From: Streptomyces sp. DG2A-72 | Lineage (GTDB): Bacteria; Actinomycetota; Actinomycetes; Streptomycetales; Streptomycetaceae | Direction: 5' to 3' | DNA length: 64,000 bases | Assembly (NCBI RefSeq): GCF_030499575.1 | Contig: NZ_JASTLC010000001.1 | Span: forward strand, 9,262,001-9,326,000 | Shown: piece after piece, positions 5,637-62,544 of the stretch | Numbering within the stretch: position 1 is the first letter of the stretch | Layout of the letters: every line of letters starts with the position of its first letter | Made by a program: the position numbers and the translations under genes | The notes under the pieces: generated by a model | What the model was told of the DNA's origin: nothing | The model's input: only the letters and a program-made list of their open reading frames with translations | The model's database searches: none

Positions 5637-5656
5637 GAACGCGTCGCCCCTGGGGT

Positions 5657-12036: not shown

Positions 12037-13269
12037 TCAGCTGGTGCCGAGGCGCTCCAGGACGTCCGCGGCCCGCGCGGTGCCACCCGCCTCCCGGATC
12101 CGCTCGCGCAGGCCGGCCACGCTCGCGTGCACCTGCGGGTCGTCCGCCACGGAACCCACGGCGTCCAGCAGGGCCGCGGCCGTGAGGTCCTCGCCGCCCG
12201 GCACCTCGGTGCCCAGGCCCAGCGCGACCGCCCGGCGCGCCACCATCCGTTGCTCTTGGGCCTGCGCGGCCAGCACCAGCGGCGTTCCGCAGGCCAGGGC
12301 CTCCATCACACTGCCCATGCCGGCCTGGCAGACGAACGCCCGCGCGTGCGGCAGCACGGCGAGATGCGGCAGCCAGCGGTGGACCTCCACCTGGGCGGGC
12401 AGGGGCCCGAGTTCGGCTGGATCGACCCCCGTGCGGCCCACGGTCAGGACCGCGTGCCAAGGGCTGTCCGCGAAGGCCTTCACACACGTGCGGAAGAACT
12501 CCGGGCGATCGCTGTAAGAGGTGCCGAGCGAGACCAGCACGACGGGCCTGCCGTCCGCGGGCGGCTGCCACGCGGCGGAGGGCGGGGACGGGTCCAGGCA
12601 GGGCCCGACGAAGACGTGCCGGTCGTCGAAGAGGTCGCCGCCCGGTTGGAAGTCGCGCGGGAAGAAGGCCATGCGCAGACCCCGGAAGCCGGTGACGAAG
12701 TCCAGCGGAGAGACGTCCGCCGCTCCGTACCCGGCCAGCAGCGCGGTCAGGTCCTCGCGGAACCGGCGCACCGCCGGCCTCTCGGCCGACCCGTCCTGCG
12801 GGGAGCCCTGCAGCATGGCCGCGAGGGAGAACCCCGGGTTGCTGGTGCGCTGGGGAAGGAAGACCGGGGAGAACTCCACTGCGGGCAGCTGCCACAGCCG
12901 TGTCAGCAGGCGGCCGGCCGGATTCATCGTCGTGTCGTACGCCACCACGTCCGGCCCTGCGTCGCCGAAGCGGTCCACGAGCGTCGCCAGCAGCGCGGAG
13001 GACTCGGCGATCGCCGCCGTCAGCGCGAGCGGGAGCCAGTCGGGGGAGTCGCCAGGCACGGCCCCGGCGAAGTCGGGCACGGCCGGGTCGTACAGCACGG
13101 TCCCGGCACCCGTCGCGCCGACCTCGGCGGCGAACGGCTCGGTCGTGGCGTATGAGACCCGGTGGCCGCGCCGCACCAACTCGGCGGCGACGGGGAGCGT
13201 GGGCCGCACATGCCCGTGGGCGGGGGCGGCGAAGAAGAGGTAGTGGCGCGCGGGGCGCTGTTCGGTCAC
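12037..13269 (-). CDS. lipGtf: Glycosyltransferase, GT1/macrolide (OleD) type; probable digitoxosyltransferase
   Basis: 410 residues with the GT-B fold of the GT1 family. The N-terminal acceptor domain begins YLFFAAPAHGHVRPTLPVAAEL, with the usual catalytic His in AHGHVRP. The C-terminal donor domain has VVLVSLGTSYS and AFVCQAGMGSVMEALACGTP followed by AQEQRMVA, the PSPG-like sugar-nucleotide site. The family normally has His-Gly/Ala-Gly where this protein has Gln-Ala-Gly. It is the third gene of a leftward operon after the dehydratase and thymidylyltransferase, 15 bp downstream of the latter. It is the only glycosyltransferase in the cluster and should transfer D-digitoxose from dTDP to the hydroxyl made by PKS module 1. 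Confidence 0.9.
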   Translation of the reverse strand: MTEQRPARHYLFFAAPAHGHVRPTLPVAAELVRRGHRVSYATTEPFAAEVGATGAGTVLYDPAVPDFAGAVPGDSPDWLPLALTAAIAESSALLATLVDRFGDAGPDVVAYDTTMNPAGRLLTRLWQLPAVEFSPVFLPQRTSNPGFSLAAMLQGSPQDGSAERPAVRRFREDLTALLAGYGAADVSPLDFVTGFRGLRMAFFPRDFQPGGDLFDDRHVFVGPCLDPSPPSAAWQPPADGRPVVLVSLGTSYSDRPEFFRTCVKAFADSPWHAVLTVGRTGVDPAELGPLPAQVEVHRWLPHLAVLPHARAFVCQAGMGSVMEALACGTPLVLAAQAQEQRMVARRAVALGLGTEVPGGEDLTAAALLDAVGSVADDPQVHASVAGLRERIREAGGTARAADVLERLGTS

Positions 13270-15510: not shown

Positions 15511-16536
15511 GTGGAAGTCAGCCTCATGGGCCTGGCGGGAATGGGATGGATAGCGAAGTCGCTGACCGCCGCCGCGGAACTCGGCCTCGCCGACCGCCTC
15601 GACGGCACGCCGATGACCGCGGAGGAACTCGCCAAGCAGACCGGCACCCACCCGGAGACGCTCGAGGCGCTGCTGCGGATCCTGTCCGCGCTCGGCGTCT
15701 TCCGCCGCGACGACGCCGGCGTGTACCGCAACTCCGCGCTGTCCGACCAGCTCCGCGACGACCACCCGCAGTCGATGCGGCACTACGTGATGCTCTCCGG
15801 CGGCCTGTACGCCGACACGTTCACCGCCGTCACCCACACGCTGCGCACCGGCGAGTCCGCCTTCCGCCACCTGCACGGCACCCGCATCTACGAGTACCTC
15901 GAGCAGCACCCCGCCGAGGCCGACCTGTACGACAAGGCCATGGCCGACCTGGCCCGGCCCGTCGCCGCGGCCCTCGCCGACGCCTACGACTTCGGCGCCG
16001 TCCGCAGCGTGCTCGACGTCGGCGGCAACAGCGGAGAGCTGCTCAAGGGGCTGCTCACCGCTCACCCGCACCTGACCGGCACGTGCCTGGACCGGCCCGA
16101 CGTCTGTGCCCGCGCCGCCGCTGAACTGGAGGCCTCCGGCCGCAAGGACCTCGCGGAACGGCTCACCTACCAGTCGGGTGACTTCCTCCAGGAGGTGCCC
16201 GCCGACGCGGACCTCTACACAGTCAAGAACGTGCTGCACAACTGGAACCACGAGCACAGCGTCGTGATCCTCGGCCGCATCCGGCAGGCCATGGAGCGCA
16301 CCGGCGCCGGCCGGCCCGCCGACGAGTGGCCCCGGCTGCTGGTCGTCGAGCCACTGGTCGAGACCGATCTCGACTGGATGCGCGTGCTGTTCCAGATGGT
16401 CGTCTGCGAGGACGGCACCCGCGGCCGTACCGACGAGGTCCAGCGGACCCAGATCGCCGAGGCCGGCCTGGAGGTGCTCGACACCCTCCGCCTCTCCACG
16501 GGCCACACCGCCCACATCTGCGCCGCTGCCCACTGA
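15511..16536 (+). CDS. lipMt: SAM-dependent methyltransferase of the O-methyltransferase-2 family; probable N-methyltransferase of the tetramate
   Basis: 341 residues from GTG 15511, with GAAGGGA upstream. The N-terminal winged-helix dimerisation domain (AAELGLADRLDGTPMTAEEL, then LEALLRILSALGVFRR) is followed by the SAM domain with motif I VLDVGGNSGELL at about residue 168, and by KNVLHNWNHE, the LHxW segment that holds the catalytic His in plant-type O-methyltransferases. The family mostly methylates oxygen. The alpha-lipomycin product has one extra methyl, on the tetramate nitrogen, and this is the only methyltransferase gene in the window, so it is the likely N-methylase. The Dieckmann cyclase gene follows after 10 bp, so both may act on or around the amino-acid unit. 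Confidence 0.82.
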   Translation: MEVSLMGLAGMGWIAKSLTAAAELGLADRLDGTPMTAEELAKQTGTHPETLEALLRILSALGVFRRDDAGVYRNSALSDQLRDDHPQSMRHYVMLSGGLYADTFTAVTHTLRTGESAFRHLHGTRIYEYLEQHPAEADLYDKAMADLARPVAAALADAYDFGAVRSVLDVGGNSGELLKGLLTAHPHLTGTCLDRPDVCARAAAELEASGRKDLAERLTYQSGDFLQEVPADADLYTVKNVLHNWNHEHSVVILGRIRQAMERTGAGRPADEWPRLLVVEPLVETDLDWMRVLFQMVVCEDGTRGRTDEVQRTQIAEAGLEVLDTLRLSTGHTAHICAAAH

Positions 16537-16546
16537 AGGAGCCCCC

Positions 16547-17380
16547 GTGACCATGCCGCAGCCCCTGCTGACCACCGCGCCGCCCGCGTGGAAGGTCCTC
16601 AACGAGGGCAGCAGTGCCGAACCCCTCGTGCTGGCTGTCGACTTCGCCGTCTCCGGGCGTCCGGAGTCCACGTTCGCAGACCTCGGCCGCCTCCTCGCTC
16701 CGAGCGTCCCGCTCTGGGAGACCCGGCAGCCGGAACTGGAGCGGGCCCGCACCTTCGACGGCGAGGACTTCGTGTCGTACTGGGTGCGGGGTGTGCGCGA
16801 CACCGGGCGCCCGGTGCGCGCCGTTCTCGGCTACTGCGTCGGCGGCCTGTACGCGGCCCGCGTCGCGCAACTCCTCGCTGCGGAGCAGGATGAGGCGCCG
16901 ACCGTCGTCCTGTTCGACCCCGAGCCGCCTCACCAAGCCGGCATGGTCGCGGACTTCCGGGCCGCCGTGGCACGGTTGTGCTCGGTGCTCAGCCCGGAGG
17001 AATCCGCGCTGGCCGGGCAGGCAGCCGTAGAGGCAGCCCAGCAGAGCGCCGGCCTCGCCGCGCTCGGCGCCGCGCTCACCGAGGTCTTCACCGGCATCAC
17101 CGGCGCCGCCTTCGCCCGGGCGGAGCTGCCCGCCGAACTCGCCGGCGAACTCAGCGGCGCCTATGAGGCGTTCGTCGCCTACATCGCCGCAGCCGCCGTG
17201 TTCGACCCGGCCGTGTCGTGGGAAGACGCCACCGCGCTGACCACTCCCGCGGCCGACCCGCACGCCCGGTACGCCGGGCGGCTCATCCCCGTCGACGCGG
17301 CCCACGAGGACATCCTGCGCAGCCCCGCCACCGCCGATGTCCTCACCGGCCTGCTCACCCGGTCCCGTCCGCAGAGCTGA
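16547..17380 (+). CDS. lipX2: Dieckmann cyclase releasing the tetramic acid (TrdC/SlgL/NcmC family)
   Basis: 277 residues from GTG 16547 (GAAGGA 6 bases upstream). It has an alpha/beta-hydrolase fold with a cysteine in the nucleophile elbow: GYCVGG, Cys97. An Asp follows in VLFDPE (Asp124) and a His near the C-terminus in VDAAHEDIL (His253), giving a Cys-Asp-His triad. The family TrdC, SlgL, KirHI, FacHI and lipomycin LipX2 is known to close tetramic acid and pyridone rings by Dieckmann condensation of a beta-ketoacyl-aminoacyl thioester, releasing it from the carrier protein. That fits this cluster, where no PKS or NRPS protein ends in a thioesterase domain. It lies between the methyltransferase and NRPS genes, both in the same direction. 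The gene symbol is recalled from the literature. Confidence 0.85.
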   Translation: MTMPQPLLTTAPPAWKVLNEGSSAEPLVLAVDFAVSGRPESTFADLGRLLAPSVPLWETRQPELERARTFDGEDFVSYWVRGVRDTGRPVRAVLGYCVGGLYAARVAQLLAAEQDEAPTVVLFDPEPPHQAGMVADFRAAVARLCSVLSPEESALAGQAAVEAAQQSAGLAALGAALTEVFTGITGAAFARAELPAELAGELSGAYEAFVAYIAAAAVFDPAVSWEDATALTTPAADPHARYAGRLIPVDAAHEDILRSPATADVLTGLLTRSRPQS

Positions 17381-17564: not shown

Positions 17565-19808
17565 GTGCAGTCAGCCGAGAAGGCGAAGCCGGCCGACGGC
17601 GCCGCGGCGGCCCTGCTTGCCGCACTGACCCAGAAGCGGCGGCTGGACGCGGCGACGCCCAAGGAGAGCGCACTGTGGTTGCTGGACCGGCTGCTGCCCG
17701 ACGCCGGCGTCAACAACGTTCCCCTCGCCGTCCGCGTCGACGGACGGCTCGACACCGCCGCGCTCCAGGCCGCCGTCGACGCCCTGGTACGCCGCCACGA
17801 GGTCCTGCGCACGGTCTACCTCGACCGGCAGGCGGGCCTCGTCCGCGAGGTGCTCGGCGAGGACACCCCCGCTCCGCGCGTCGAGGTCCACGACATCGTC
17901 GCCGGCGTACCGGAGAAGGCGCTGCGGGAGTTCGCCGCGACCCCGATCCGGTGCGACGGCCGGCTGATGCTGCGCGTGGCCGTCTTCCGGGGACCGGATG
18001 CCGACACCCTCGCCGTGGTGGTCCACCACCTCGTCTTCGACGCGGTCTCGGTGCCGGTCCTGATCGCCGAACTCGCCGCCGCCTACGACGCCCGCGCCAC
18101 GGGCCGCGACCTGCCCGACGAACTGCGCGCCCCCGCCCCGGCCCTGCGGGACGCCGCGCCCCGCGAAGAGAGCCTCGCCTACTGGCGCTCCGCGCTCGAC
18201 GGCTTCGACCCGGCCGGTCTCGACCTGGACTGCACACGCCTCGCACCGGCCCGGGCCACCCTGGTGGGCGACACCGTCCTGCGCGTCCTGGACGACGAGA
18301 CCCGGGACCTGGTGCGCGGGCTCCAGCGCACCTTGCGGGCACCCGAGGCCGTCATCCTCCTCACCGCCTTCTGCCTGCTGCTCGCGGCACACGGCGCCGG
18401 GCCCGACCTCGTCGTCGGATCCCCGGTCAACATCCGGCCGCCCGAGGCGCAGTCCGCGATCGGCTACCACGTCAACACCCTGCCGCTACGGCTGACAGTC
18501 GACTCCGGCCGCGGCTTCCGCGACCTGGTGAAGGAGGCGCGCACCGCCTTCTTCGGCGCGCTCGCCCACAGCGACGTACCTGTGGACGCCATCGCCCACG
18601 AGACCGTGCGCGAGACGGTGTCCTGGCGCGACACCCTCTTCCAGCACATGTTCAACTACGTGCCCGTGGAGCCGGCCCAGCCCCTCACACTGGGTGGCGT
18701 CCCGGCCCGGCCGCTGCACCTCGAGACCGGGTTCAGCAAGTTCGACCTGGAGCTGTTCGTGCAGTCCGGTGCCGACCACATCGGCCTGCGCGTCCTGTAC
18801 TGCTCCGAGGTGCTCGACCGGGCCGACGCCGAGGCCCTGGCCCACCGCTACGCGACCCTGCTGCACACCGTCGCCGCCGAACCCGACCGGCCCGTCGGTG
18901 AGCTGGACGTGTGGAGCGCCGAGGACCGCGCGCTGCCAGGCCCGGGCACGGCACGGTCGGTGCCGGACACCGCGGTCGATGCCGACCGCGACCTCGACGC
19001 GTTCCGCACCGCCCCCGACGGTTCGGCGCTCGGCCTCGCGGACGCGGCGGCCCGCTGCGCGGCCGACGGCGGCTACCCCTATGTCGTCCACCCGCTCGAC
19101 GCCCGGCACGTCGCCGTCGTCGGGCGGGCCGGCAACCGGCTCCCGGCCGGGGTGCGCGGCGAGGTGTGCCTCGTACGGCCCGACGGGGCCACGCATGTGG
19201 CCACCGGCTGGACCGGCAGCCTGCGCCGCGACGGCGCGCTGGAGCTGTACGGCCACGCCGAGCGCGCCGCTCTGCTGCACGGCCGGGTGGTGCACCCCGA
19301 GCGGGTGGAGGCCGTACTGCTGGCGCATCCGGAGGTCACCGGGGCGGCGTTGGCCGTCGCGGACGGGACGGCGCTTGCGTTCGTCACCGCAGACGAGCGG
19401 CCCGGTCTCGCGGACGACGTCGCCGGTCACGCCGCCCGGCTGCTGCCGCGCGCGGTGCAGCCGGCCCGGGTGATCCGCACCGACGTGCTGCCGCTGCGTC
19501 CTGACGGCGGCTGGGACACGGCGGCGCTGCTGGCGTCCGCCGCGGCCGAGCCGGAGAGCGAGCTGGACGACCCCGGTGGGCTGGTGGGTGACCTGCGCGG
19601 GCTGTGGCGCGACCTCCTCGACCTCGCGGAACCCGCCGACGCCAACGCCGACTTCTTCTCGCTCGGCGGGCATTCGCTGCTCGGCGCCCAGCTGGTGCAG
19701 CGCGTCGACGACGTGACGGGGACGCGGATCAGGCTGGCCGACCTGTTCGACAACCCGACGCCGCGCAGCCTCGCGCGCCATCTGCGGGCCCTGCGCGACG
19801 ACAGCTGA
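17565..19808 (+). CDS. lipNrps: NRPS: condensation domain, vestigial adenylation domain, PCP
   Basis: 747 residues from GTG 17565. Residues about 35-450 are a condensation domain with HHLVFDAVS (HHxxxD, His at about 153-154). Residues about 470-660 look like only the C-terminal part of an adenylation domain: LPAGVRGEVCLVRPDG, then ATGWTGSLRRDGALELYGHA (A7-like) and LHGRVVHPERVEAVLLAHPE (A8-like). The ATP-binding cores (the SGTTG-type loop, the A4/A5 region) and the A10 lysine are missing. A PCP follows with LGGHSLL, Ser704 being the phosphopantetheine site. Its task should be to condense the M7 beta-ketoacyl chain with an amino acid on the PCP. Glutamate is expected from lipomycin, and must be activated elsewhere. 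There is no TE domain. Confidence 0.88.
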   Translation: MQSAEKAKPADGAAAALLAALTQKRRLDAATPKESALWLLDRLLPDAGVNNVPLAVRVDGRLDTAALQAAVDALVRRHEVLRTVYLDRQAGLVREVLGEDTPAPRVEVHDIVAGVPEKALREFAATPIRCDGRLMLRVAVFRGPDADTLAVVVHHLVFDAVSVPVLIAELAAAYDARATGRDLPDELRAPAPALRDAAPREESLAYWRSALDGFDPAGLDLDCTRLAPARATLVGDTVLRVLDDETRDLVRGLQRTLRAPEAVILLTAFCLLLAAHGAGPDLVVGSPVNIRPPEAQSAIGYHVNTLPLRLTVDSGRGFRDLVKEARTAFFGALAHSDVPVDAIAHETVRETVSWRDTLFQHMFNYVPVEPAQPLTLGGVPARPLHLETGFSKFDLELFVQSGADHIGLRVLYCSEVLDRADAEALAHRYATLLHTVAAEPDRPVGELDVWSAEDRALPGPGTARSVPDTAVDADRDLDAFRTAPDGSALGLADAAARCAADGGYPYVVHPLDARHVAVVGRAGNRLPAGVRGEVCLVRPDGATHVATGWTGSLRRDGALELYGHAERAALLHGRVVHPERVEAVLLAHPEVTGAALAVADGTALAFVTADERPGLADDVAGHAARLLPRAVQPARVIRTDVLPLRPDGGWDTAALLASAAAEPESELDDPGGLVGDLRGLWRDLLDLAEPADANADFFSLGGHSLLGAQLVQRVDDVTGTRIRLADLFDNPTPRSLARHLRALRDDS

Positions 19809-19997: not shown

Positions 19998-22900
19998 GTG
20001 TCCGAACACCGTGGCAGCGCAGGTGGCTCCGCACTGTTCCCCCGGACGGGGACCGTGCTGCCCTGGGTCCTGACCGGCCCCGGCGCCGCCGCCGTACGGG
20101 CCCGCGCCGAGGCTCTGCGCACGCACCTCGGCGCGACCGCCGAGTGGTCGCCGGCCGGGGTCGGACAGGCCCTCGTCGCCGGGGCCGGGGCCGGCACCCA
20201 CCGGGCCGTCGTGCTCGCCGGGGATCGCACGCAGACCCTGGACGCGCTCGCCGCGCTGACCGCCGGCGCCGACCACCCGGCGGTGGTCACCGGCACCCAC
20301 GCGGACGCCTCCCCGGCCGGGCCGGTGTTCGTCTTCCCCGGGCAGGGCTCGCAGTGGACCGGCATGGCCCGCGAACTCCTCGACACCGCCCCGGTGTTCG
20401 CCCGCAAGGTGCACAACTGCGCCGACGCGTTCGCCCCCTACCTGGACCACTCCCTGCTGGACTCCGTGACGGGCGCGGCCGGTGGTCCCGAGCCGGCCGG
20501 CGCCGACGTGGTGCAGCCCGCGCTGTTCGCGGTGATGGTGGCGCTGGCCGACCTGTGGAGCGCGGCCGGGGTCACCCCCGGCGCCGTGCTCGGGCACAGC
20601 CTCGGTGAGCTGGCCGCCGCGCATGTCGCCGGGGCACTGTCCCTGGACGACAGCGCCCGGGTCGTGGCCCGCTGGAGCCAGGCGCAGGCCACCCTCGCCG
20701 GGCGCGGCGACATGGTGTCGGTGCTGCTGCCCGCCGACGAACTCGCCGGCCTGCTCGACCGGCGCTGGCCGGGCAGGCTGGTCGTCGCCGTGGAGAACAG
20801 CCCCGGCTCGGCCGTCGCCTCCGGTGACGTGGACGCGGCGGCGGAACTCGTCGCCCACCTCACCGCCGAGGGCATCCACGCCCGGCGCGTCGACGTGGGG
20901 CTCGCCGCGCACTCCCCGCACATCGACGCGATCCTCCCCCGCATCCGCGAGGACATCGCGCCCGTCCGCGCCCACGCCCCCCGCATCCCCGTCTACTCCG
21001 CGCTGCACGGCGGAGCGCTGGACGGCACGCCCTTGGACGCCGCCCACTGGTGCCGCAACCTGCGCTCCACCGTCCGCTTCGCCGACGCCACCCGCGCGGC
21101 GCTGGAGGCCGGGCACACCACGCTCGTCGAGGTCAGCCCGCACCCGGTGCTGACCACCGCCATGGAGGTCTCCGCGACCCGGGCGGCCCGTACGGCCACC
21201 GTCCTCGGCACCCTGCGCCGCGGCGAGGGCGGTCCGTCCCGCTTCCTCGCGTCGCTGGCCGAGCTGCACGTGTCCGGCGGTGCCGCCGACCTGCGAACCG
21301 TCCTGCCCGCTTCCGAGGCCGTACGACTGCCGGAGGCGGTCCTCACCGCCGGGCCGCGCGAAGAGTCCGCGGACGGCGGCGCCCCGCACGAGGCGCTGCG
21401 CGCCTGCCTGGCGCCGCTCGACCCGGTAGAACGCCACGCCCATCTGCTGGCCGTGGTGCGGGAGTGCACCGCCGCGGCACTCGACGGCGACGACGAGGGC
21501 TCCATCGACGACCGGCGCACCTTCCGCGACCTCGGCGTCACCTCGCTCACCGCCGTCGGCATCCGCGACCGGCTGCGCTCCGCGACCGGGCTGCGGCTCT
21601 CCCCGACCGTCGTCTTCGACCACCCCACGCCGAACGCGCTCGCCGCCCAGTTGGACGCCGAACTGTTCGGCACCATTGCCGACGCCGATCCCGCCCCGGC
21701 CGTCGGTAGCCGGGCCGCGCTGCACGACGAGCCCATCGCGATCGTCGGCATGGCCTGCCGCTACCCGGGTGGCGTGGGCTCTCCCGCCGACCTGTGGCGC
21801 ACGGTCCTCGCCGGTGTCGACGCGGTCGGCCCGCTGCCCACGGACCGCGGCTGGAACATCGCCGACGGCTACGACCCCGAGATGGGCGGCCCCGGCCGGT
21901 TCTCCCAGCACGAGGGCGGATTCCTCCACGACGCCGCCGAGTTCGACGCGGAGTTCTTCGGGATCTCGCCGCGCGAGGCACTTGCCATGGACCCGCAGCA
22001 GCGGCTCGCCCTGGAGTCCGCCTGGGAGGCGATCGAGGACGCCGGTCTCGACGCGCACGCCTTCAAGGGCTCCCGCACCGGTGTGTTCCTCGGCCTCATC
22101 ACCCAGGACTACGGCCCCCGCGCCGGCGAACCCACCGCGCAGGCCGGCGCGGTCGAGGGCCACCTGTTCCTCGGCTCCACCGGCAGCGTCGCCTCCGGCC
22201 GCCTCTCCTACGTGCTCGGCCTGGAGGGGCCGTCGCTGACCATCGACACCGCCTGCTCCTCGTCGTTGGTCGCCCTGCACGAGGCGTGCCAGGCGCTGCG
22301 CACCGGTGAGTGCGACATGGCGCTGACCGGCGGTGTCACCGTGATGCCGAGCACCGGCATGCTCGTCGAGTTCTCCCGCCAGCGGGGCTTGTCTCCCGAC
22401 GGGCGCTGCAAGGCGTTCTCCGCGTCCGCCGACGGCTTCGGCCTGGCCGAGGGCGTGGGCATGCTCGTCGTCGAGCGGCTGTCGGACGCGCGGCGTCTGG
22501 GGCATCGGGTGCTGGCGGTGGTGCGGGGCAGTGCGGTCAATCAGGACGGTGCGTCGAATGGGTTGAGTGCGCCGAGTGGGCCTGCTCAGCAGCGGGTGAT
22601 CCGGCAGGCGTTGGTGAACGCGGGGGTGCAGGCGTCCGAGGTGGACGTGGTGGAGGCGCATGGCACTGGGACTCGGCTCGGCGATCCGATCGAGGCGCAG
22701 GCTCTGCTGGCGACGTATGGGCAGGGGCGGTCGGTCGAACGGCCGCTGTGGCTGGGGTCGTTGAAGTCGAACATCGGGCATGCGCAGGCGGCGGCCGGTG
22801 TGGGTGGTGTGATCAAGATGGTGATGGGGCTGCGGGCCGGTGTGTTGCCGCGCACTCTGCATGCGGATGTGCCGTCGCCGCATATCGACTGGGCGGCGGG

Positions 22901-25900
22901 GAACGTGCGGCTGCTGACCGAGGCGCGGGAGTGGGCGGAGGCCGGGCATCCGCGCCGGGCCGCGGTGTCGTCGTTCGGCGTGAGCGGCACCAACGCCCAC
23001 GTGATCCTCGAAGCCGCCCCCGAGACCGACGGTGCGCCCGAGGTGTCCGACGGCGTCCTGGGCAGCGCGCCCGGGATCGTGCCGTGGGTGTTGTCCGCCG
23101 CGTCCGCCGACGCCCTGCGCGCGCAGGCCGAGCGGCTGAGCGGGCACGTGGCCGAGCGTCCCGGACTCGCCCCCGCTGACGTGGCGTTCTCCCTCGCGAC
23201 GAGGCGTACGGCGCTGGAGCACCGGGCCGTCGTCGTGGGCGGTGACCGCGACGAACTCCTCGCCACCCTGGACGCGTTGAGCGCCGGCCGTCCCGCTCGC
23301 GGGGCCGTGCTGGGTGACGCGGCCGCCCATTCCCGCCGTCCCGTGTTCGTGTTTCCGGGGCAGGGGTCGCAGTGGGTGGGGATGGCGGTGGAGTTGTTGG
23401 ACTCGTCGCCGGTGTTCGCGGAGTCGATGCTCGCCTGTGGGGAGGCGCTGAGCGAGTTCGTGGGCTGGGATCTGCTGGAGGTTTTGCGGGACGGGGACGA
23501 GGAGCTGTCGAACCGCGTCGATGTGGTGCAGCCGGTGTTGTGGGCGGTGATGGTGTCGTTGGCCGCGGTGTGGCGTGCGTGTGGGGTGGTGCCGGCTGCG
23601 GTGGTGGGTCATTCGCAGGGTGAGATCGCGGCTGCGGTGGTGGCGGGTGGTTTGTCGTTGCGTGATGGTGCGCGGGTGGTCGCACTGCGCAGTGCGGTGA
23701 TCGGCGGTCTGCTGGCGGGCAGGGGCGGTATGGCGTCGGTGGCGCTGGCGTCCGACGCGGTGCGGGAACGGCTGGGGTTGTGGGAAGGACGCCTGTCCCT
23801 GGCGGCGGTGAATGGTCCGTCGTCGAGTGTGGTGTGCGGACACGTCGACGCGCTGGACGAGTTTGTGAGCGCACTCGAACGTGACGGAGTGAGAGTGCGG
23901 CGTATCGCGGTGGACTATGCGTCGCACTCGGTTTTCGTGGAGCAGGTGGAGGAAGAACTCCTCGATGTGCTGGGGGATGTCTCTCCCCGGTCGGGTGAGG
24001 TGCCGTTCTATTCCACGGTCACCGGTGGAGTCTTCGACACGAGCGGACTCGACGCCGGGTACTGGTACCGGAATCTGCGGCGGACGGTGCGTTTTGAGGA
24101 GACGGTGCGGGAGTTGGCGCGTCGGGGCTTTGACGCGTTCGTCGAGGTGAGTGCGCATCCGGTGCTGGCGGTGGGTGTGCAGGAGACACTGGAGGCGGCC
24201 GGGGCGCGGGGTGTGGTGTGTGGGACGTTGCGTCGGGGTGAGGGTGGTGTGCGGCGGCTGCTTGCCTCGCTGGGCGAGGCGTGGGTCGCCGGGGTCGGGG
24301 TCGACTGGTCACGACTGACACCGGCCGCGAGCGCGGTAGAGCTGCCGACGTACGCGTTCCAGCACCAGCGCTACTGGCTCGACAGCACTGCCGCGAACAC
24401 CGGTGACCGGCCCGCCGACGACCAGGACGCCGCGTTCTGGGAGGCGGTCCAGCACACCGACCTGGACGGTTTCGCCGCCGAACTGGACATCGCGCCCGAC
24501 GCCCCGCTCGGCACCGTCCTGCCCGCGCTCGCCGACTGGCGGCAGCGCATGCGGACCACGGCAGCCGTGGACGCGTGGCGCTACAGGATCACCTGGAAGC
24601 ACCTGCCCGACGTGCCCGGCGCCCCGGTCCTCAGCGGGCCCTGGCTGGCCGTCGTACCGGAACGGCACACGGACGCCCCGTCCGTCACCGCGTCCCTGGA
24701 CGCCATGGCGAAGGCCGGCGCCGAGGTGGTCCGGGTGACGGTCGAGGACGCCGATGCCGACGTGGACCGGCTCACCGAGCGGCTGCGCGGCCTCGTCACC
24801 GGGCTCGGCTCGACACCGGCCGGGGTCCTGTCGTTCCTCGGTCTGGACGAGGAGCGCCACCCCGGCCATCCGGCCATGCCGAGCGGGCTGGCGATAAGCC
24901 TCGCCCTGGTGCGCGCCCTCGGCCGGGCCGGGATCGGCGCCCCGCTGTGGATGGTGACCCGGCAGGCCGTCGCGGCCGGCGAGGACACCCACCCGCACGC
25001 CCCGCTGGGCTCGCTGCTCTGGGGCCTCGGCCAGGTTACGGCCCTCGAACACGCCGACCGGTGGGGCGGGTTGATCGACTTGCCCGCCGTCTGCGACGCC
25101 CGGGTCGCGCGCATGCTGTGCGCCGCGCTCGCCGGGCACGGCGTCGAGGACCAGCTGGCCCTGCGTCCCTCGGGCACGTTCATCCGCCGACTTGTCCACG
25201 CTCCCGGCGAGCAGCGGGCCGCCCGGCGCAGCTGGCGTCCGCGGGGCACGGTGATCGTCACCGGCGGCACCGGTGCTCTCGGAGCCGTCCTCGCCCGGTG
25301 GCTGGCCGCGGAGGGCGCCGAGCACCTGGTGCTCACCGGGCGCCGCGGAGCCGACGCGCCCGGCGCCGAGCAACTGCGCGACGAACTCGCCGTGACCGGC
25401 GCCCGTGTCACCATCGCTGCCTGCGACATCGCCGACCGCAAGGCGGTGGCGGCGCTCCTCGACGAGCTCGCCGCCGACGGGGAGACCGTACGCGCCGTGC
25501 TGCACGTAGCGGGCGTCGCGGACCTGACCTCCCTGGAGGACACCGGCCCGGAGGCGTTCGCCGCCGGAGTCGCCGCCAAGGTCGACGGCGCCCTGCACCT
25601 CACCGAACTCCTCGACCACGGCGAGTTGGACGCCTTCGTCCTGTTCTCCTCCATCGCCGGCGTGTGGGGCAGCGGCGACCACGGCGCCTACGCCGCCGCC
25701 AACGCGTTCCTCAACGCGCTCGCCGAGCACAACCGGGCCCGCTCCATCCCCACCACCTCCATCGCCTGGGGCGTGTGGAACGCGTTCGGCGTCGAGGGCG
25801 CCGGCGGCATCTCCGAGGCCGTCGACCTCGACCAGCTGCACCGGCGGGGCCTGCCCCTCATCGAACCCGAGCTGGGCCTCACCGCGCTGCAGCGGGCCCT

Positions 25901-26588
25901 GGACCGCGACGAGACCGTGCTCACCGTGGCACCCGTCGCCTGGGAGCGGTTCTTCCCCCTGTTCAGCGCGGCCCGCCCACGACCGCTGTTCGAGGACCTG
26001 CCGCAGATCCGGGCGCTGTCCGCGCCGACGCCCGCGGGCCCGGCCGCCGAGTCCGGGCAGCGCGGCTCGGGGCTCGCCGACCTGCCGCTCGCCGACCGGG
26101 ACAGCGCCCTGCTCGCCCTGGTCCGCGGCGAGGCCGCCTCCGTGCTCGGCTACGAGCGGCCCGACCAGCTCGACGTCGACCGCGCCCTGCGCGACGTCGG
26201 CTTCGACTCCCTCACCGCGATGGAGCTGCGCAACCGGCTGGCCAAGGCCACCGGCCTCACCCTGCCCGCAGCGCTGGTCTTCGACCACCCGACACCGCTC
26301 GCCATCGCCGCGTACCTCAAGACCGAGCTCTACGGGCCCGACGCCGGCGACGACAGCTCCGTCCTCACCGAACTGGACGCGCTGTCTCAGCGGCTGGCGG
26401 CCATCGACCCGGACACCAACACCCGGCTGGAGATCACCCTGCGGCTGCGCTCGCTGCTCACGCGGTGGAGCGAGCCGGACGGCGGCCGTACGACGGCCGA
26501 AACGGCCACGACCACCTCCGCCACGGCACTCGAATCGGCCAGCGCCGACGAGGTGCTGGCCTTCATCGACACCGAACTCGGCATCTGA
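19998..26588 (+). CDS. lipPks1: Type I PKS: loading AT-ACP plus module 1 (KS-AT-KR-ACP)
   Basis: 2196 residues from GTG 19998 (GGGAG upstream). The loading AT has FPGQGSQW (about 112) and GHSLGE (Ser201), and lacks a KS; the loading ACP has LGVTSL (Ser516). KS1 has CSSS at Cys753. AT1 has GHSQGE (Ser1206) and YASH (1307-1310), the methylmalonyl signature. KR1 has the GGTGALG loop at about 1753, Ser1885 and Tyr1898, with Trp1890 eight residues before the Tyr and no LDD, so it is A-type. ACP1 has GFDSL (Ser2071). There is no DH; the linker [17 protein letters not shown] is a post-AT dimerisation element. The C-terminus ([12 protein letters not shown]) is a docking domain. A DEBS/avermectin-style loading module fits a branched acyl-CoA; isobutyryl is known for LipPks1. 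Product: 2,4-dimethyl-3-hydroxypentanoyl-ACP. Confidence 0.93.
22473..22980 (+). repeat. Near-identical KS segment, copy in module 1
   Basis: About 508 bp of KS1 aligned without gaps to 27467-27974 in KS2 (offset 4994). The only clear difference I see is GGTCGAAC against CCGATGAAC near 22730. Codon choice here (GGG TTG AGT GCG) differs from that in the flanking KS sequence. Confidence 0.8.
23520..24381 (+). repeat. Near-identical methylmalonyl-AT segment, copy in module 1
   Basis: About 862 bp aligned without gaps to 28529-29390 in AT2 (offset 5009), with very few substitutions (for instance the codons before DTSGLD). It covers the GHSQG and YASH motifs and ends in the post-[13 protein letters not shown] segment. 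Confidence 0.8.
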
Positions 26589-26632: not shown

Positions 26633-29600
26633 ATGGCGGATCACGACAAGCTGGTCGACTACCTGAAGCGCGTCACGGCTGATCTGCAGCAGACCAGGCA
26701 GCGGCTGCGCGAGTACGAGGCGCAGAGCAACGAGCCCATCGCGATCGTCGGCATGGGCTGCCGCTACCCGGGCTCCGTCGCCTCCCCCGAGGAGCTGTGG
26801 CGGCTGGTGCACGGCGGCGTCGACGCCGTCGGCGGCCTGCCCACCGACCGCGGCTGGGACGTGGAGGCGCTGTACGACCCGGAGGCGCGGACCCCCGGCA
26901 CGACCTACGCCCACGAGGGCGGGTACCTGACCGGCGCCACCGAGTTCGACCCGGAGTTCTTCGGGATCTCGCCGCGCGAGGCGCTCGCCATGGACCCGCA
27001 GCAGCGCCTCGTCCTGGAGGTCGCCTGGGAGACGCTGGAGCACGCCGCCATCGACCCCGCCACCCTGCGCGGCTCCAGCACCGGTGTGTTCGTCGGCTGC
27101 AACTACCAGGAGTACCGGGCCCGGCTGTCGGACGTGCAGGAGGGCCTGGAGGGCCACCTCGTCACCGGCAGCGTCTCCAGCGTGGTCTCCGGCCGGGTCT
27201 CCTATGTCCTCGGTCTCGAAGGTCCGGCGCTCACCGTCGACACCGCCTGCTCCTCCTCCCTCGTCACGCTCCACCTGGCCTGCGAGGCGCTGCGCCGGGG
27301 CGAGTGCACCATGGCCCTCGCGGGCGGTGTCGCCGTGATGAGCACCCCGCACACCGTCACCGGCTTCTCCCGGCAGCGCGGTGTCGCCGCCGACGGGCGG
27401 TGCAAGGCGTTCTCCGCGTCCGCCGACGGCATGGGCTTCGGCGAGGGCGCCGGCCTGCTGCTGGTGGAGCGGCTGTCGGACGCGCGGCGTCTGGGGCATC
27501 GGGTGCTGGCGGTGGTGCGGGGCAGTGCGGTCAATCAGGACGGTGCGTCGAATGGGTTGAGTGCGCCGAGTGGGCCTGCTCAGCAGCGGGTGATCCGGCA
27601 GGCGTTGGTGAACGCGGGGGTGCAGGCGTCCGAGGTGGACGTGGTGGAGGCGCATGGCACTGGGACTCGGCTCGGCGATCCGATCGAGGCGCAGGCTCTG
27701 CTGGCGACGTATGGGCAGGGGCGGTCCGATGAACGGCCGCTGTGGCTGGGGTCGTTGAAGTCGAACATCGGGCATGCGCAGGCGGCGGCCGGTGTGGGTG
27801 GTGTGATCAAGATGGTGATGGGGCTGCGGGCCGGTGTGTTGCCGCGCACTCTGCATGCGGATGTGCCGTCGCCGCATATCGACTGGGCGGCGGGGAACGT
27901 GCGGCTGCTGACCGAGGCGCGGGAGTGGGCGGAGGCCGGGCATCCGCGCCGGGCCGCGGTGTCGTCGTTCGGGATCAGCGGGACGAACGCGCACGTGATC
28001 CTGGAGGAGGCCGAGGCCGTCGAGGCTTCCGGTGAGGCGGACGGCGGGGCCGGTGACGCGGGGACGCCTGTTCTTTCCGGTACGGACGTCGTCGCCTGGC
28101 CGGTGTCCGCCGCGTCCGCCGACGCCCTGCGCGCGCAGGCCGAGCGGCTGAGCGGGCACGTGGCCGAGCGGCCGGGACTCGCCCCCGCCGACGTGGCGTT
28201 CTCGCTCTCCACCACCCGGTCCGCCCTCGCCCGGCGTGCCCTCGTCGTCGGTGGCGACCGGCACGAACTGCTCGCCGGTCTCGAATCCCTCGCCGCCGAC
28301 CGGCCCGGGAACGGTCTGGTGAAGGGTCTCGCCGATCTCGGCACCAAGCCCGTGTTCGTGTTTCCGGGGCAGGGGTCGCAGTGGGTGGGGATGGCGGTGG
28401 AGTTGTTGGACTCGTCGCCGGTGTTCGCGGAGTCGATGGCAGCGTGCCAGGAGGCGCTGGCGGAGTTTGTGGAGTGGGATCTGCTTCAGGTTCTGCGCAG
28501 TGAGGACGCGTCGGCGCTTGAGGCTGTGGATGTGGTGCAGCCGGTGTTGTGGGCGGTGATGGTGTCGTTGGCCGCGGTGTGGCGTGCGTGTGGGGTGGTG
28601 CCGGCTGCGGTGGTGGGTCATTCGCAGGGTGAGATCGCGGCTGCGGTGGTGGCGGGTGGTTTGTCGTTGCGTGATGGTGCGCGGGTGGTCGCACTGCGCA
28701 GTGCGGTGATCGGCGGTCTGCTGGCGGGCAGGGGCGGTATGGCGTCGGTGGCGCTGGCGTCCGACGCGGTGCGGGAACGGCTGGGGTTGTGGGAAGGACG
28801 CCTGTCCCTGGCGGCGGTGAATGGTCCGTCGTCGAGTGTGGTGTGCGGACACGTCGACGCGCTGGACGAGTTTGTGAGCGCACTCGAACGTGACGGAGTG
28901 AGAGTGCGGCGTATCGCGGTGGACTATGCGTCGCACTCGGTTTTCGTGGAGCAGGTGGAGGAAGAACTCCTCGATGTGCTGGGGGATGTCTCTCCCCGGT
29001 CGGGTGAGGTGCCGTTCTATTCCACGGTCACCGGTGGAGTCCTGGACACGAGCGGACTCGACGCCGGGTACTGGTACCGGAATCTGCGGCGGACGGTGCG
29101 TTTTGAGGAGACGGTGCGGGAGTTGGCGCGTCGGGGCTTTGACGCGTTCGTCGAGGTGAGTGCGCATCCGGTGCTGGCGGTGGGTGTGCAGGAGACACTG
29201 GAGGCGGCCGGGGCGCGGGGTGTGGTGTGTGGGACGTTGCGTCGGGGTGAGGGTGGTGTGCGGCGGCTGCTTGCCTCGCTGGGCGAGGCGTGGGTCGCCG
29301 GGGTCGGGGTCGACTGGTCACGACTGACACCGGCCGCGAGCGCGGTAGAGCTGCCGACGTACGCGTTCCAGCACCAGCGCTACTGGCTCGATGCCACCAC
29401 CGGCAGCGGTGCCGATGTCGCGGCGGCCGGGCTGGGGGCCGCCGGACACGGGCTGCTCGGCGCGTCCGTCGCCCTCGCGGGCAGCGGCGGCACCGTCCTG
29501 ACCGGCAGGCTCTCCCTCGCCACGCACCCCTGGCTCGCCGATCACGCCGTGCGTGGTGTCGTCCTCGTGCCCGGCACCGGCCTGGTCGAACTCGCCGTCC

Positions 29601-32600
29601 GCGCGGGCGACGAGGTCGGCTGCGGACGCGTGGCGGAACTCACGCTCCAGGCTCCGCTCGTTCTGCCGCCCGAGGGCGCGGCGCAGGTCCAGGTCGTCGT
29701 CGGTGCCGCCGATGACGCCGGGGTGCGCAGCGTGGACATCTACTCGCGGCTGGAGGAGCCGGGCGCGGACGGGCCGTGGACGCTGCACGGGACGGGCACG
29801 GTGGCGCCCGTCGCCGGTGAACCGGCCGGCGGCCGGGCCGACCTCGCCGTGTGGCCGCCGCGTGAGGCCGAAGTCCTCGACACCGACGGCTTCTACGAGA
29901 CGATGGCCGGCCGCGGCTACGAGTACGGCCCCGCCTTCCAAGGCCTGCGCGGCGTCTGGCGCCGCGGGGACGAGGTGTTCGCCGAGGTCGCCCTTCCCGA
30001 GGAAGTCACGGGTGCCGCCGGGGAGTTCGGGCTGCACCCCGCGCTGCTCGACGCGGGGCTCCAGTCCGGGCTGCTCACGCTCTTCGCCCCCGCCGACGGC
30101 GGTGCCTCCGGGATCCGGCTGCCGTTCTCGTGGCGTGGGGTCGCCCTGCACGCCGTGGGCGCGACCGCCCTGCGCGTGCGCATGGCCCCCGTCGCCGGTG
30201 ATCCGACGACGGTGACGCTCGACGTGGCGGACGCCTCCGGTGCGCCGGTGGCCTCGGTGGACGTCCTGGCGACGCGTGAAGTGTCCGAGGAGCAGCTCGC
30301 GGCAGCGGCACCGGGGGGCGACGACTCGCTGTTCCGGGTGGAGTGGGTTGCCGCAGCCGATGATGGCTCGGCCGAGGCTGCGTCCTGGGCGGTGCTGGGG
30401 GAGTCGCCTCTGGGTGACGATGGTTTCGCGTTCGCGGATGTGGATGCGCTGGTCGCGTCGTCGGAGGACCTACCCGGCACCGTGGTGCTGGAGTGCCCGG
30501 CGGGTGAGGGCGCGGGTGCGGTGCCGGAGGTCGTACGGGCGCGGCTCGCCGAGGTGCTGGGCGTGGTCCAGCGGTGGGTCTCCCACGAGCGGCTGGCGTC
30601 CTCACGGCTCGTCGTGGTGACGCGGGGCGCGGTGTGCGTGACCGCCGGTGAGACCGTGGATGTGCGGGTCGCGCCGGTGTGGGGTCTGGTGCGGGCGGCT
30701 CAGGCCGAGCACCCGGACCGGTTCGTGCTGGCGGATCTGCCGGCAGGTGCCGGTGCGCAGGAGCTGGCCGCCGGCCTGGCCTGCGGCGAGCCGCAGTGGG
30801 CCGTGCGGGACGGTGCCGTACGCGTCCCCCGTCTGGTGCGGGCGCAGGCTCCGGCCGGTGAGGCTCCGGGCTTCGGGGACGGTCCGGTGCTGGTCACCGG
30901 CGCCTCCGGGGTGCTCGGCGGTGTCGTCGCCCGGCACCTGGTCGCGGCCCACGGCGTGCGGGAGCTGGTGCTCGTCAGTCGGCGTGGTCCGGCGGCCGAC
31001 GGCATGGACCGGCTGGAGGCGGAGCTGGTCGCACTCGGCGCGACCGTCGAGAACGTCGCCTGCGACGTGGCCGACCGCGACGCCCTGGCTCGCGTGCTCG
31101 ACGGCCGTCGGCTGACCGGTGTGGTGCACGCGGCCGGTGTGCTGGACGACGGTGTGCTGGAGTCCCTGGATGAGGCCCGGTTCGACACCGTGCTGCGGCC
31201 CAAGGTCGACGCCGCCTCGCATCTGGACGAGCTGACCCGCGACCACGAGCTGTCGGCGTTCGTGCTGTTCTCCGCCGGCGCCGGGACCCTCGGCAACGCC
31301 GGCCAGGCCAACTACGCGGCCGCCAACGTCTTCCTCGACGCCCTCGCCCAGGCCCGCCGCGCCGAGGGCCTGCCCGGTCTGTCGCTGGCGTGGGGTCTGT
31401 GGGCCGAGACCAGCGCGATGACCGGCCGGCTCGGCGAGACTGACCTGAACCGGCTCGCCCGGCTCGGCGTCGCCGCCATGGAGACCGGGCATGCCCTCGC
31501 CCTCCTCGACGCGGCTGCCCGCACCGACGAGCCGTACCTGCTCCCCGTACGGCTGGACCTCGCGGCCCTGCGGCGGCGCGCGGCGGCCTCCGGGGTGCCG
31601 GCGCTGCTGAGTGCCCTGGTCCCGCAGCGCGTCCGCCGACGGGCGGCCGGTACGGGTGCCGGTGCCGCGTCGGCCGACGGCGGCGACCTCGGCGGGCGGC
31701 TCGCCGTACTGCCCGCGGACCGGCGCGAGGAGTTCCTGCTCGACGTGGTCCGCGGCGAGGTCGCGGCCGTCCTCGGCCACGCCTCCCCCGACGCGGTCGA
31801 ACCCAAACGCGCCTTCAAGGACCTCGGCTTCGACTCCCTCACCGCCGTCGAACTGCGCAACCGGCTCGGCGCCGCCACCGGGCTGCGCCTGCCTGCGACC
31901 CTCGTCTTCGACCACCCGAACGCCGCCGCCGTCGTCCGCCTGCTGTGGTCAGAACTCGGCGGCGCCACCCCGGCCGCCGACGCCCCGGCGACCCGCCCGA
32001 GCACCCCGGCCGACGCCGACGAGCCCATGGCGATCATCGGCATGAGCTGCCGTTTCCCCGGCGACGTGGCGTCCCCGGAGGACCTGTGGCGGCTGGTCGC
32101 CGAGGGCCGCGACGCGATCGACGTCATGCCCGGCGACCGCGGCTGGGACGTCGACGCCCGCTACGACCCGACCCCGGGCGTGCCCGGACGGATCTACTCC
32201 CGTGAGGGCGGCTTCCTGCGGAACGCGGCCGAGTTCGACCCGGCGTTCTTCGGGATCTCGCCGCGCGAGGCGCTCGCGATGGACCCGCAGCAGCGGCTGC
32301 TGCTGGAGACGGCGTGGGAGGCGTTCGAGCGCGCGGGCATCGACCCGGCCACCCTGCGCGGCAGCCGTACGGGCGTCTTCGCGGGCGTCATGTACCACGA
32401 CTACGGCGCCCGGCTCGGCGCGGGCACCGTGCCCGAGGACGTCGAGGGATACGTCGGCAACGGCAGCGCCGGCAGCATCGCGACCGGCCGCATCGCCTAC
32501 ACCTTCGGCCTGGAGGGCCCGGCGGTCACCGTCGACACCGCCTGCTCGTCGTCCCTCGTGGCGATGCACCTCGCCACGCAGGCGATCCGACAGGGCGAGT

Positions 32601-35600: not shown

Positions 35601-37372
35601 CTCTGGCCGACGGTGGTCTCGCGTTCGCGGATGTGGATGCGCTGATTGCCTCCTCGGAAGACCTTCCCGTCGCCGTGGTGTTGGAGTGCGCGCCCGTCGC
35701 GGGTCCGGTGCCGGATGCCGTGCGGGATCAGCTCGCCGGTGTTCTGGGTGTGGTGCAGCGGTGGGTCACTGACGAGCGGCTGGCGTCGTCGCGGCTGGTC
35801 GTGGTGACCCGTGGTGCCGTGGCCGTGTCGGGTGATCACGCGGTGGATGTGCGGACGGCGCCGGTGTGGGGTCTGGTGCGGGCGGCCCAGGCCGAGCATC
35901 CGGGCAGGTTCGTGCTGGCGGACCTTCCGGTGGAGGCCGGTGCGGAAGCGCTGGCTGCCGGGCTGGCCTCGGGTGAGCCGCAGTGGGCCGTCCGCGACGG
36001 CGCCGTACGAGCCCCGCGTCTGGTGCGGGCGCAGGTCGAGACCGGTGAGGCTCCGGGGTTCGGGAGTGGTCCGGTGCTCGTCACGGGAGCGTCCGGGACA
36101 CTGGGTGGCGTCGTCGCCCGGCACCTGGTGGCGGTGCATGGTGTGCGGGAGCTGGTGCTGCTCAGCCGCCGGGGTCTCGCCGCCGACGGCATGGACGTAC
36201 TGCGCGACGAACTGACCGAGCAGGGCGCGGCTGTAGAGATCCTGGCCTGCGACGCGGCCGACCCCGATGCCCTCGCCCATGCGCTCGACGGGCGCCGGCT
36301 CACCGGTGTGGTGCACGCGGCCGGGGTGTTGGACGACGGTGTGCTGGAGTCGCTGGACGCGGCCCGTTTCGACACCGTCCTGCGCCCGAAGGTGGACGCC
36401 GCCTGGAATCTGCACGAGCTCACGCGTGACTACGAGCTGTCGGCGTTCGTGGTGTTCTCGTCGGCTGCCGGTGTGTTCGGCAACGCGGGTCAGGCCAACT
36501 ACGCGGCGGCGAACGTCTTCCTGGACGCCCTCGCCCAGAGTCGGCGCGCCGAAGGGCTCCCCGGCCTCTCCCTGGCCTGGGGGCTGTGGGCCGAGGCGAG
36601 CGCGATGACCGCCAGGCTCGCCGAGGCGGACCGGGAGCGGATCGCGCGGCTCGGCGCGGAGGCGCTGGGCGAGGCCGAGGGGCTGGCGCTGCTCGACCGG
36701 GCGGTCGCCGGTGACGGAGACGGCCTGCTGGTCCCCGTACGGCTCAACCTACCCGCCCTGCGCGGTCGTTCCGAGGGTGTGCCCGCCGTGCTGCGGGCGC
36801 TGGTGCCCGTCAGGGCGCGGCGGCAGGCCGCGGCCGGAGCGGCGGCGGGCTCGGGCGGCGGGCTGGTCGAGCGGCTGGCGGCGCTGAGCGAGAGCCGGCG
36901 GGCGGTGCATCTGCTGGACCTGGTGCGTACGGAGGTCGCCGGGGTGCTGGGACACCGTTCCGCCGCGACGGTCGAGCCGGAGCGTGCCTTCAAGGACCTC
37001 GGGTTCGACTCGCTCACGGCGGTGGAGCTGCGCAACCGGCTCCACGCGGCCACCGGTCTGAAGCTGGCCGCCACGGTCGTCTTCGACCACCCGACCTCGG
37101 CCGACCTGGCCCGTCATCTGCGCACACAGATCCCGCACCTGCCGGCGGCGGGCCCGGAGGGCCTGCTCGGCGAACTCGACCGGATCGAGCAGATGCTGAC
37201 CGACGTCGACCCGACCGACGAGGAGAGCGCCGGCATCCAGCGGCGCCTCGCCGCCCTGCTCGCCCGCTTCGACGAGGCGGCGCGACCGGTGGAGGCTGAG
37301 CGGGTCGCCGACAAGATCGACGCGGCGACGGACGACGAGATCTTCGCCTTCATCGACAACGAACTCGGCTGA
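26633..37372 (+). CDS. lipPks2: Type I PKS: modules 2 and 3 (each KS-AT-DH-KR-ACP)
   Basis: 3579 residues from ATG 26633. The N-terminal coiled-coil docking segment ([20 protein letters not shown]) matches the C-terminus of PKS1. M2: KS Cys206; AT GHSQGE (Ser664) with YASH 765-768, so methylmalonyl; DH His971 in [13 protein letters not shown] with LDD (B-type) and Tyr1561, but Ala1548 where the catalytic Ser is expected; ACP Ser1735. M3: KS Cys1971; AT GHSIGE (Ser2410) with HAFH at 2510, so malonyl; DH His2711; KR Tyr3290 with an intact SS; ACP Ser3460. The C-terminus ([13 protein letters not shown]) is the docking type that pairs with the coiled coil of PKS3. Predicted outcome: the trisubstituted alkene (M2), then one disubstituted alkene (M3). 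Confidence 0.93.
27467..27974 (+). repeat. Near-identical KS segment, copy in module 2
   Basis: Partner of 22473-22980. Both ends fall at sharp transitions back to KS-specific sequence, as expected of a gene-conversion tract. Confidence 0.8.
28529..29390 (+). repeat. Near-identical methylmalonyl-AT segment, copy in module 2
   Basis: Partner of 23520-24381. Both are the only methylmalonyl AT domains in the assembly line, which suggests that the specificity was copied from one module to the other. Confidence 0.8.
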
Positions 37373-62348: not shown

Positions 62349-62544
62349 TTCCGACAGCGTACGGACGCCGGGCCCCCCTATTGGCCCCCTAATATCCCCT
62401 GACAGAAAGCAGCGGACCGGAATTGTGCGGGGGTTTTCCGGGGTCGGCGTTCGGCAATCTTCTGCGACGGCCGTGGGCTTGCTAGTTTGCCGGATGTAAT
62501 CGACTCGACTCGGCCGCCTCCGGCCGCGACGGCAGGAAAACGAA
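62349..62544. promoter_or_regulatory. Divergent promoter region with three phased CCCCT repeats
   Basis: CCCCTA (62375), CCCCTA (62386) and CCCCTG (62396) are spaced 11 and 10 bp, about one helical turn, 27-53 bp upstream of the 2,3-dehydratase start and between it and the GatC/AtzG-like gene. On the minus strand they read TAGGGG-type, like the phased repeats at 15244-15271. A shared activator, most simply the LAL regulator, is a reasonable guess. Confidence 0.5.

Follow-up and report, generated by a model that had tools for sequence, protein, structure and literature searches.

In syringomycin biosynthesis, the last module of SyrE, which is without an adenylation (A) domain, is fed from the A-T didomain SyrB1, and SyrC, like CmaE of coronamic acid, shuttles the aminoacyl group between carriers; the syringomycin system is reviewed together with albicidin, cystobactamid, ramoplanin, and enduracidin (PMC8949500, available part). 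In the LgnB (A-T)/LgnA/LgnD system of legonindolizidine, the type II thioesterase (TEII) LgnA moves Thr between the carriers of two proteins (PMC8748450, available part). The closest described system is that of bripiodionen, in which mutation showed that the cis A domain of the tetramate module (BpdC, C-A*-T) is dead and that both carrier serines are essential; the module works with a separate A-T protein (BpdD), assigned Asn. NcmC, a Dieckmann cyclase of the Cys-Asp-His type, forms a tetramic acid, and in the NcmC-type BpdE none of C89A, D116A, H245N, and Y204F restored the product in vivo. The bripiodionen transfer catalyst was not found, as TEII deletion was without effect and there was no SyrC homologue (all in the part of PMC10956176 that was available). 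Here, a gene of Streptomyces sp. DG2A-72 encoding a condensation (C) domain, an A-domain remnant, and a peptidyl carrier protein (PCP) is analyzed. It lies at 17565..19808 (+) of a stretch of 64,000 nucleotides, hereafter the window (contig NZ_JASTLC010000001.1, positions 9,262,001 to 9,326,000). Judged by its sequence, it is probably part of the terminal tetramate module of an alpha-lipomycin-like polyene polyketide synthase (PKS)-nonribosomal peptide synthetase (NRPS), split over two proteins with the amino acid supplied in trans.

As in bripiodionen, the locus combines a tetramate PKS-NRPS, an inactive cis A domain, a separate A-PCP protein, and an NcmC-type cyclase, and the first PKS begins with AT-ACP followed by KS-AT-KR-ACP. 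However, BpdC has 900 aa and its A domain is inactive through D552P and K792R, whereas the A core is deleted here; moreover, one cyclase is listed in the available part of that report, whereas a second cyclase-like gene (cyc2) accompanies the A-PCP gene here. The arrangement also resembles SyrB1/SyrC/SyrE and LgnB/LgnA/LgnD, in which an aminoacyl group passes between carriers. In contrast to SyrC and CmaE, the candidate shuttle is a paralogue of an NcmC-type Dieckmann cyclase, and LgnA, as a TEII, belongs to another family. The principle of trans supply is already known, because it is in print for bripiodionen, syringomycin, and albicidin; new here are the graded erosion of the A domain and cyc2 as a candidate aminoacyl shuttle. 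No paper on a truncated adenylation domain with a condensation domain in a polyketide synthase context was found in the literature searched. An earlier reading of the same DNA, the first-pass annotation, saw neither the tetramate context nor the Dieckmann cyclases nor the published trans supply to a tetramate module.

The terminal NRPS protein has 747 aa, and its Pfam matches were Condensation (PF00668, 5.1e-53; residues 37–455, 17673..18929) and PP-binding (PF00550, 6.2e-15; residues 677–740, 19593..19784), with no AMP-binding match. The C-domain HHLVFD and the PCP GGHS are intact, as had been read before. The 221 residues between the two matches comprise a linker with the last scrap of the A core (RLPAGVRGEVCLV, 18930..19190), which resembles the stretch before A7 in the alignment with complete modules, and the C-terminal A subdomain (A_sub), or stub (19191..19550, likewise on the + strand). 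AMP-binding_C (PF13193) gave 22.8 bits with the remnant alone and 20.1 bits with the whole protein against a cut-off of 24.5; it exceeded the cut-off in two of three relatives tested (P0001 and P0007) and fell below it in P0043. A profile derived from the C-terminal A-domain part of 40 complete C-A-PCP homologues matched residues 543–646 at 58.6 bits and the remnant at 61.5 bits, the best of 2000 shuffles reaching 10.4. The A-core profile gave no match in a default search; with filters off, 16.5 bits were left, compared with 6.8 for the best shuffle.

At the A10 position the stub reads DGGWDT instead of NGKxD, and the catalytic Lys is absent; at A7, where YRTGD is found in 17 of 20 intact modules, it has VATGW. 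As fold searches with the whole model mostly returned C domains, the stub was folded alone, and this model matched the A_sub fold; the stub is predicted to fold, with 10-residue pLDDT means of 79–92 over residues 481–660. By these measures, what remains is the small C-terminal subdomain of the A domain; the ATP-binding core and the A10 Lys are missing, and by its sequence the protein lacks what adenylation requires. The first-pass annotation had claimed just such a reduction, with core and A10 Lys gone and an A7-like motif eroded, and the Pfam, profile, and shuffle results bear it out. Its figure of about 190 A-like residues is fair, and about 105–120 of these are clearly homologous. The stub is the former mobile A subdomain, perhaps retained as a folded spacer that holds the PCP in the position required by the C domain; the first-pass annotation had suggested a spacer or a docking surface for a trans-acting A domain. 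The relative L102 has no stub and 35 residues between C and PCP, which bears on the putative spacer or docking role if the L102 module is active.

Among the matches listed, at least eight orthologues (746–757 aa, 64–90% identity) have the same C-remnant-PCP architecture, and at least six further homologues at 40–43% identity (638–713 aa) have shorter remnants. At the DNA level, five genes were compared in 10 pairs (the window, L109 of S. tendae, L111 of CCM_MD2014, L089, and L090), and all five were open and in frame. The dN/dS of the stub was 0.26–0.56 in nine pairs and 0.75 in the closest one, that of the C domain 0.15–0.41, that of the linker before the stub 0.38–1.05, and that of the PCP 0.21–0.71 in nine pairs. 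For the closest pair, which has few changes, the PCP ratio was 4.05. The stub exceeded the C domain in nine of 10 pairs; it is constrained, but less than the C domain. A sequencing error, which the first-pass annotation had raised as an objection, and fresh decay are ruled out, because the orthologues share the architecture, the five genes are in frame, and the dN/dS of the stub is below 1.

The genome's own AMP-binding search listed 55 matches, none of which lies inside the window, and the earlier statement that no free-standing A domain is encoded in the 64 kb stands. The nearest match, at genome positions 9327879–9328952, is 1.9 kb beyond the window end; no other was found in the roughly 340 kb that precede the window or on to the contig end. 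It belongs to an A-PCP didomain of 624 aa, a length that rests on the start codon picked by us, at window coordinates 65189–67063 (−), about 1.2 kb past the window end. Its A3, A5, A7, A8, and A10 motifs are intact (TSGSTGRPKG, YGPSE, RTGD, and NGKLD among them), and its carrier site is GGDS, as in all five copies read in the window group. This group reads FDAAWD and NLYGPSECTVDA, and the A-PCP proteins of G374, G101, G368, a Saccharothrix metagenome-assembled genome (MAG), and G388 read FDM/L.V and NEYGPTE..VGC. Read by motif on GrsA code positions, the former code is presumably Glu/Gln-like and the latter Asn-like. Thus, of the first-pass expectation of a stand-alone A domain with a Glu/Gln code just past position 64,000, the location was right, the protein carries a PCP in addition, and the code is plausible.

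The A-PCP gene lies at the opposite end of the cluster, some 45 kb away from the stub NRPS gene. The pair of cyc2 and A-PCP is present in five other genomes (G262, G215, S. tendae G392, CCM_MD2014 G394, and S. halobius G090), and in three of these an amidase and a 2,3-dehydratase adjoin the A-PCP. Together with the intact A-PCP, this recurrence supports the activation in trans that had been proposed. As the catalytic part of the cis A domain is lost and a complete A domain lies at the cluster's other end, the amino acid is very probably handed between two proteins.

For comparison, tetramate modules were surveyed. A cyclase search of 392 Streptomyces genomes gave 50 matches in 39 genomes, and the DNA was read around 49 of them, the second G226 copy being left out; moreover, 26 of 62 loci from a contig search were scanned, and rows L109–L120 were used. 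L110 was dropped as a copy of L089, and L113 and L080 were left out because they have a C domain and an intact-looking A domain with no PCP in the same frame. Consequently, 34 C...PCP modules were obtained, 33 with a cyclase in the locus and one (L120) without. The A domain is intact in 20 rows (core 425–559 bits), which are 19 distinct ones as L106 and L117 are one gene counted twice, and dead or eroded in 14 modules. In the latter, the core score is 296 bits in L078, whose A3 motif is ASAPDGEPVA, 88 in L118, 85 in L066, 46 in L101, and 0–22 in nine stubs, with nothing left in L102. This series from a complete to a dead, a half-deleted, and finally a bare folded tail suggests how the split arises. 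As a side observation, the same G226 cyclase match occurs at C1:90012–90680 and again at 9714635–9715303, each time about 90 kb from one end of a 9.8 Mb contig, as would be expected if the tetramate cluster were part of terminal inverted repeats.

Of the 14 modules with a dead or eroded A domain, 12 are accompanied by a separate A or A-PCP gene, for which a core score of at least 100 bits was required. The separate gene is an A-PCP beside a second cyclase in G000, G262, G215, G392, G394, G090, G374, and G101, an A-PCP adjoining the module in G368 and the Saccharothrix MAG, an A-PCP about 15 kb from the module in G388, and an A without PCP in G137. All 12 read with the TSG motif at A3 and Lys at A10. 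By comparison, a separate A domain of at least 100 bits was present in none of the seven intact-A clusters (of 20) examined to about 50 kb on each side; among these controls, L229 of G228 contains a 1681-aa C-A frame, and there are two weak frames (15 and 30 bits) in G226. The A-PCP of S. halobius, about 53 kb from its module, is slightly past this range. With linked genes only, the comparison is 10 of 11 against 0 of 7 (Fisher p 2.5e-4, though the genomes are related).

The streptolydigin-type genome G137 (S. lydicus) also has a C - A_sub stub - PCP protein and a separate A protein, the latter taken to be the MbtH-A protein SlgN1, and one NcmC-type cyclase was found in it. Its cluster lies in a stretch assigned to streptolydigin (PMC5357945, available part). 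It differs from the window in that the separate A domain has no PCP, and therefore no carrier-to-carrier transfer is needed there. This gene (L198 14577–17420, −) is preceded by a stretch that is MbtH-like by eye, a second solution to the same loss; a search with an MbtH pattern gave no match in the A protein.

In the case of cyc2 (window coordinates 67093–67944, −), 29 bp upstream of the A-PCP gene, the protein is an NcmC homologue (2.9e-41) that is 34% identical to cyc1, the cyclase gene next to the stub gene, and retains Cys-Asp-His. The position of NcmC Tyr204 is Phe in all five window-type cyc2 proteins and Tyr in five window-type cyc1 proteins. In a quick tree, the cyclases on the A-PCP side fell into two groups: one unites the window type and S. 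halobius (SH-aLRT 99), the other the Saccharothrix MAG and G374/G101 (99). Over the six genomes with both, cyc1 and cyc2 have pairwise identities that covary (r 0.98; 1 of 720 permutations as high, namely the observed one), a pattern that common descent alone would likewise produce. Cyclase-like proteins also stand beside A(-PCP) genes in L074 (G077) and L081 (G051), with the Cys kept and Asn/Arg for the catalytic Asp/His.

The following sequence of events is proposed. The A-PCP protein would activate the amino acid and load its own PCP, after which the aminoacyl group would move to the PCP of the C-remnant-PCP protein. The C domain would then join it to the beta-ketoacyl chain from PKS4, and cyc1 would close and release the tetramic acid. 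For the transfer step, cyc2 is the catalyst that we tentatively favour, the alternative being a spontaneous or A-PCP-driven transfer. On this proposal, cyc2 might be a duplicated Dieckmann cyclase that, with the acylating Cys-Asp-His retained and the cyclising Tyr204 lost, turned into a carrier-to-carrier shuttle from A-PCP to C-stub-PCP, a role to which we would give somewhat less than even weight. No report of an NcmC-type protein as an aminoacyl shuttle was found in the literature searched, most subscription papers being outside its coverage.

Several observations weigh against the split-module proposal. The A-PCP is about 45 kb from its proposed partner, and its cluster membership is deduced from synteny. 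Similarly, the separate A genes of G215 and G392 are on contigs other than the module, L078 (G388) has no stand-alone A domain within about 50 kb and another complete C-A-PCP about 39 kb on, and the S. lydicus ISP-5461 module was read to 10 kb only. The eroded label requires four changes on the C-domain tree, and a single clade is not rejected (AU p 0.148); therefore, the cases might not represent independent events. In G014, a cyc1 homologue (63%, L091 9635–10447) and an A-PCP homologue (73–76%, L196 6098–7873) are present on separate contigs, and neither C-stub-PCP nor cyc2 was found in searches of this genome, in which the A-PCP follows a different PKS.

Together with the position of the pair beyond the sugar genes and the amidase and the 55 AMP-binding matches in the genome, the G014 case would fit a different explanation, namely that A-PCP and cyc2 serve another task, such as sugar aminoacylation or a neighbouring pathway, and that an A domain encoded at some other place in the genome loads the stub PCP. 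This is improbable, as the pair and the stub partner co-occur in five other genomes, the amidase and 2,3-dehydratase stand beside the A-PCP in three of those, the surroundings hold no other AMP-binding match, either in some 340 kb of upstream sequence or as far as the contig end, and eroded modules go with separate A genes (12 of 14 against 0 of 7). Direct trans loading, in which the A domain of the A-PCP would charge the stub PCP itself with no carrier-to-carrier step, is somewhat less remote and still unlikely. It would resemble the action of CmnA-A1 on CmnI in capreomycin, for which it has been demonstrated (PMC12400406, available part), and the stub module of G137 with its separate A protein without PCP fits it. 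However, the A domain here has a PCP of its own, which reads GGDS in the five copies examined from the window group, and the carrier serine of the A-T protein was essential in bripiodionen (PMC10956176, available part). Least probable by far is a decaying pseudogene, with the cluster dead or the chain made without an amino acid. The fast linker (0.38–1.05 over 10 pairs) and the closest-pair PCP ratio of 4.05 from few changes can be cited for it; against these stand the intact C and PCP motifs, the open frame in five genes, a stub dN/dS below 1 in 10 of 10 pairs, and an architecture that is constant across 64–90% identity.

As for the shuttle role of cyc2, it is a realistic, if doubtful, possibility that the protein is instead an ordinary Dieckmann cyclase, the second of the cluster, or a hydrolase that edits mis-charged A-PCP. 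Its homology to NcmC (2.9e-41) with Cys-Asp-His retained would be expected of such an enzyme, and the bripiodionen gene table, in the available part of PMC10956176, holds one cyclase only. The distribution of residues at the Tyr204 position also speaks against a shuttle. The A-PCP-side cyclases of S. halobius, G374, and G101 keep Tyr; Phe is also found in L099, L114, and one L075 copy, none on the A-PCP side of a pair and some beside complete modules; and L065, L077, and L078, likewise none on that side, have Trp. Accordingly, the change from Tyr204 to Phe was rejected as a diagnostic of shuttles. Moreover, a single cyclase goes with the A-PCP in G368 and at the Saccharothrix locus, and no cyclase stands beside the A-PCP of G388/L102. 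On the other hand, Phe in five of five window-group copies is the substitution that abolished BpdE, and cyc2 adjoins the A-PCP rather than the releasing module in the six genomes with the pair.

The rest of the cluster looks alpha-lipomycin-like, with the stub protein in the terminal module of a polyene-tetramate PKS-NRPS. Upstream of the stub gene lies cyc1 (16547..17380, +), an NcmC-type Dieckmann cyclase homologue (2e-46 to NcmC 6e6t) with Cys-Asp-His and Tyr204 kept; an initial guess that the Cys hydrolases were SyrC/CmaE was replaced by NcmC on this homology match. It is preceded by a SAM methyltransferase (15511..16536, +; PF00891 1.8e-27), which perhaps N-methylates the amino acid. The PKS genes follow the stub gene on the + strand: PKS1 (19998..26588; AT-ACP-KS-AT-KR-ACP, loading and module 1), PKS2 (26633..37372) and PKS3 (37493..48289), each with two KS-AT-DH-KR-ACP modules, and PKS4 (48315..58136), with one such module and a last module without DH and thioesterase. 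The order is thus a loading and first module, five KS-AT-DH-KR-ACP modules, and a last DH-less module, whose final ACP reads GFASL. As this last module has no DH and its KR-like stretch is without the NADPH and YAAAN motifs, a beta-ketoacyl chain is probably left, as a tetramate needs. The KS/AT stretches of modules 1 and 2 (about 22300–23900 and 27600–28900) are near-identical in translation, which suggests a recent PKS gene conversion.

A TEII with GHSMG (58184..58933, +; PF00975 5.5e-57) follows the PKS genes. The sugar genes are an NDP-hexose 2,3-dehydratase for a deoxysugar (60897..62699, −; PF03559 2.4e-154), a nucleotidyltransferase, a 4,6-dehydratase type, a GFO/IDH oxidoreductase, and an epimerase-type reductase, which, together with a macrolide-family glycosyltransferase (12037..13269, −; TIGR01426 2.8e-106), fit a 2,6-dideoxy sugar. 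Between them and the cyc2/A-PCP pair lies an AtzE-type amidase (62846..64000, +, continuing to 64270 outside the window), which adjoins the A-PCP gene in three relatives (92, 91, and 82 percent); a 48 percent homologue is near the S. halobius cyclase. With this amidase beside the A-PCP, it is possible, as a speculation, that Gln is loaded and hydrolysed to Glu later. In addition, a DDE transposase fragment is found at 5225–5779 (PF01609, 22.6 bits, cut-off 23).

Compared with the alpha-lipomycin system (LipNrps, LipPks1-4, LipTe, LipX2), the window has a LipPks1-type first protein and a cyclase gene, and we take the sugar genes and LipPks2-4 of the alpha-lipomycin cluster to be shared as well. 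The likeness rests on domain order, gene order, and the type of the first PKS; no Lip-named protein was among the matches listed (best 120 of 358, 30 of 30, and 120 of 7981; names abbreviated). For LipNrps, LipPks1, and LipTe, the accession numbers imply the same NRPS-PKS-TEII order (PMC10956176 Table 1, available part).

Split modules are natural points at which amino acids can be swapped in assembly lines. For tetramate-type split modules, the window group offers a concrete candidate for the transfer enzyme, encoded next to the A-PCP gene, and the erosion series amounts to a natural experiment on the function of the A_sub tail. If the shuttle role of cyc2 is true, it would provide split tetramate modules with the transfer enzyme that they have been missing and would account for the reduction of the cis A domain to a folded tail.

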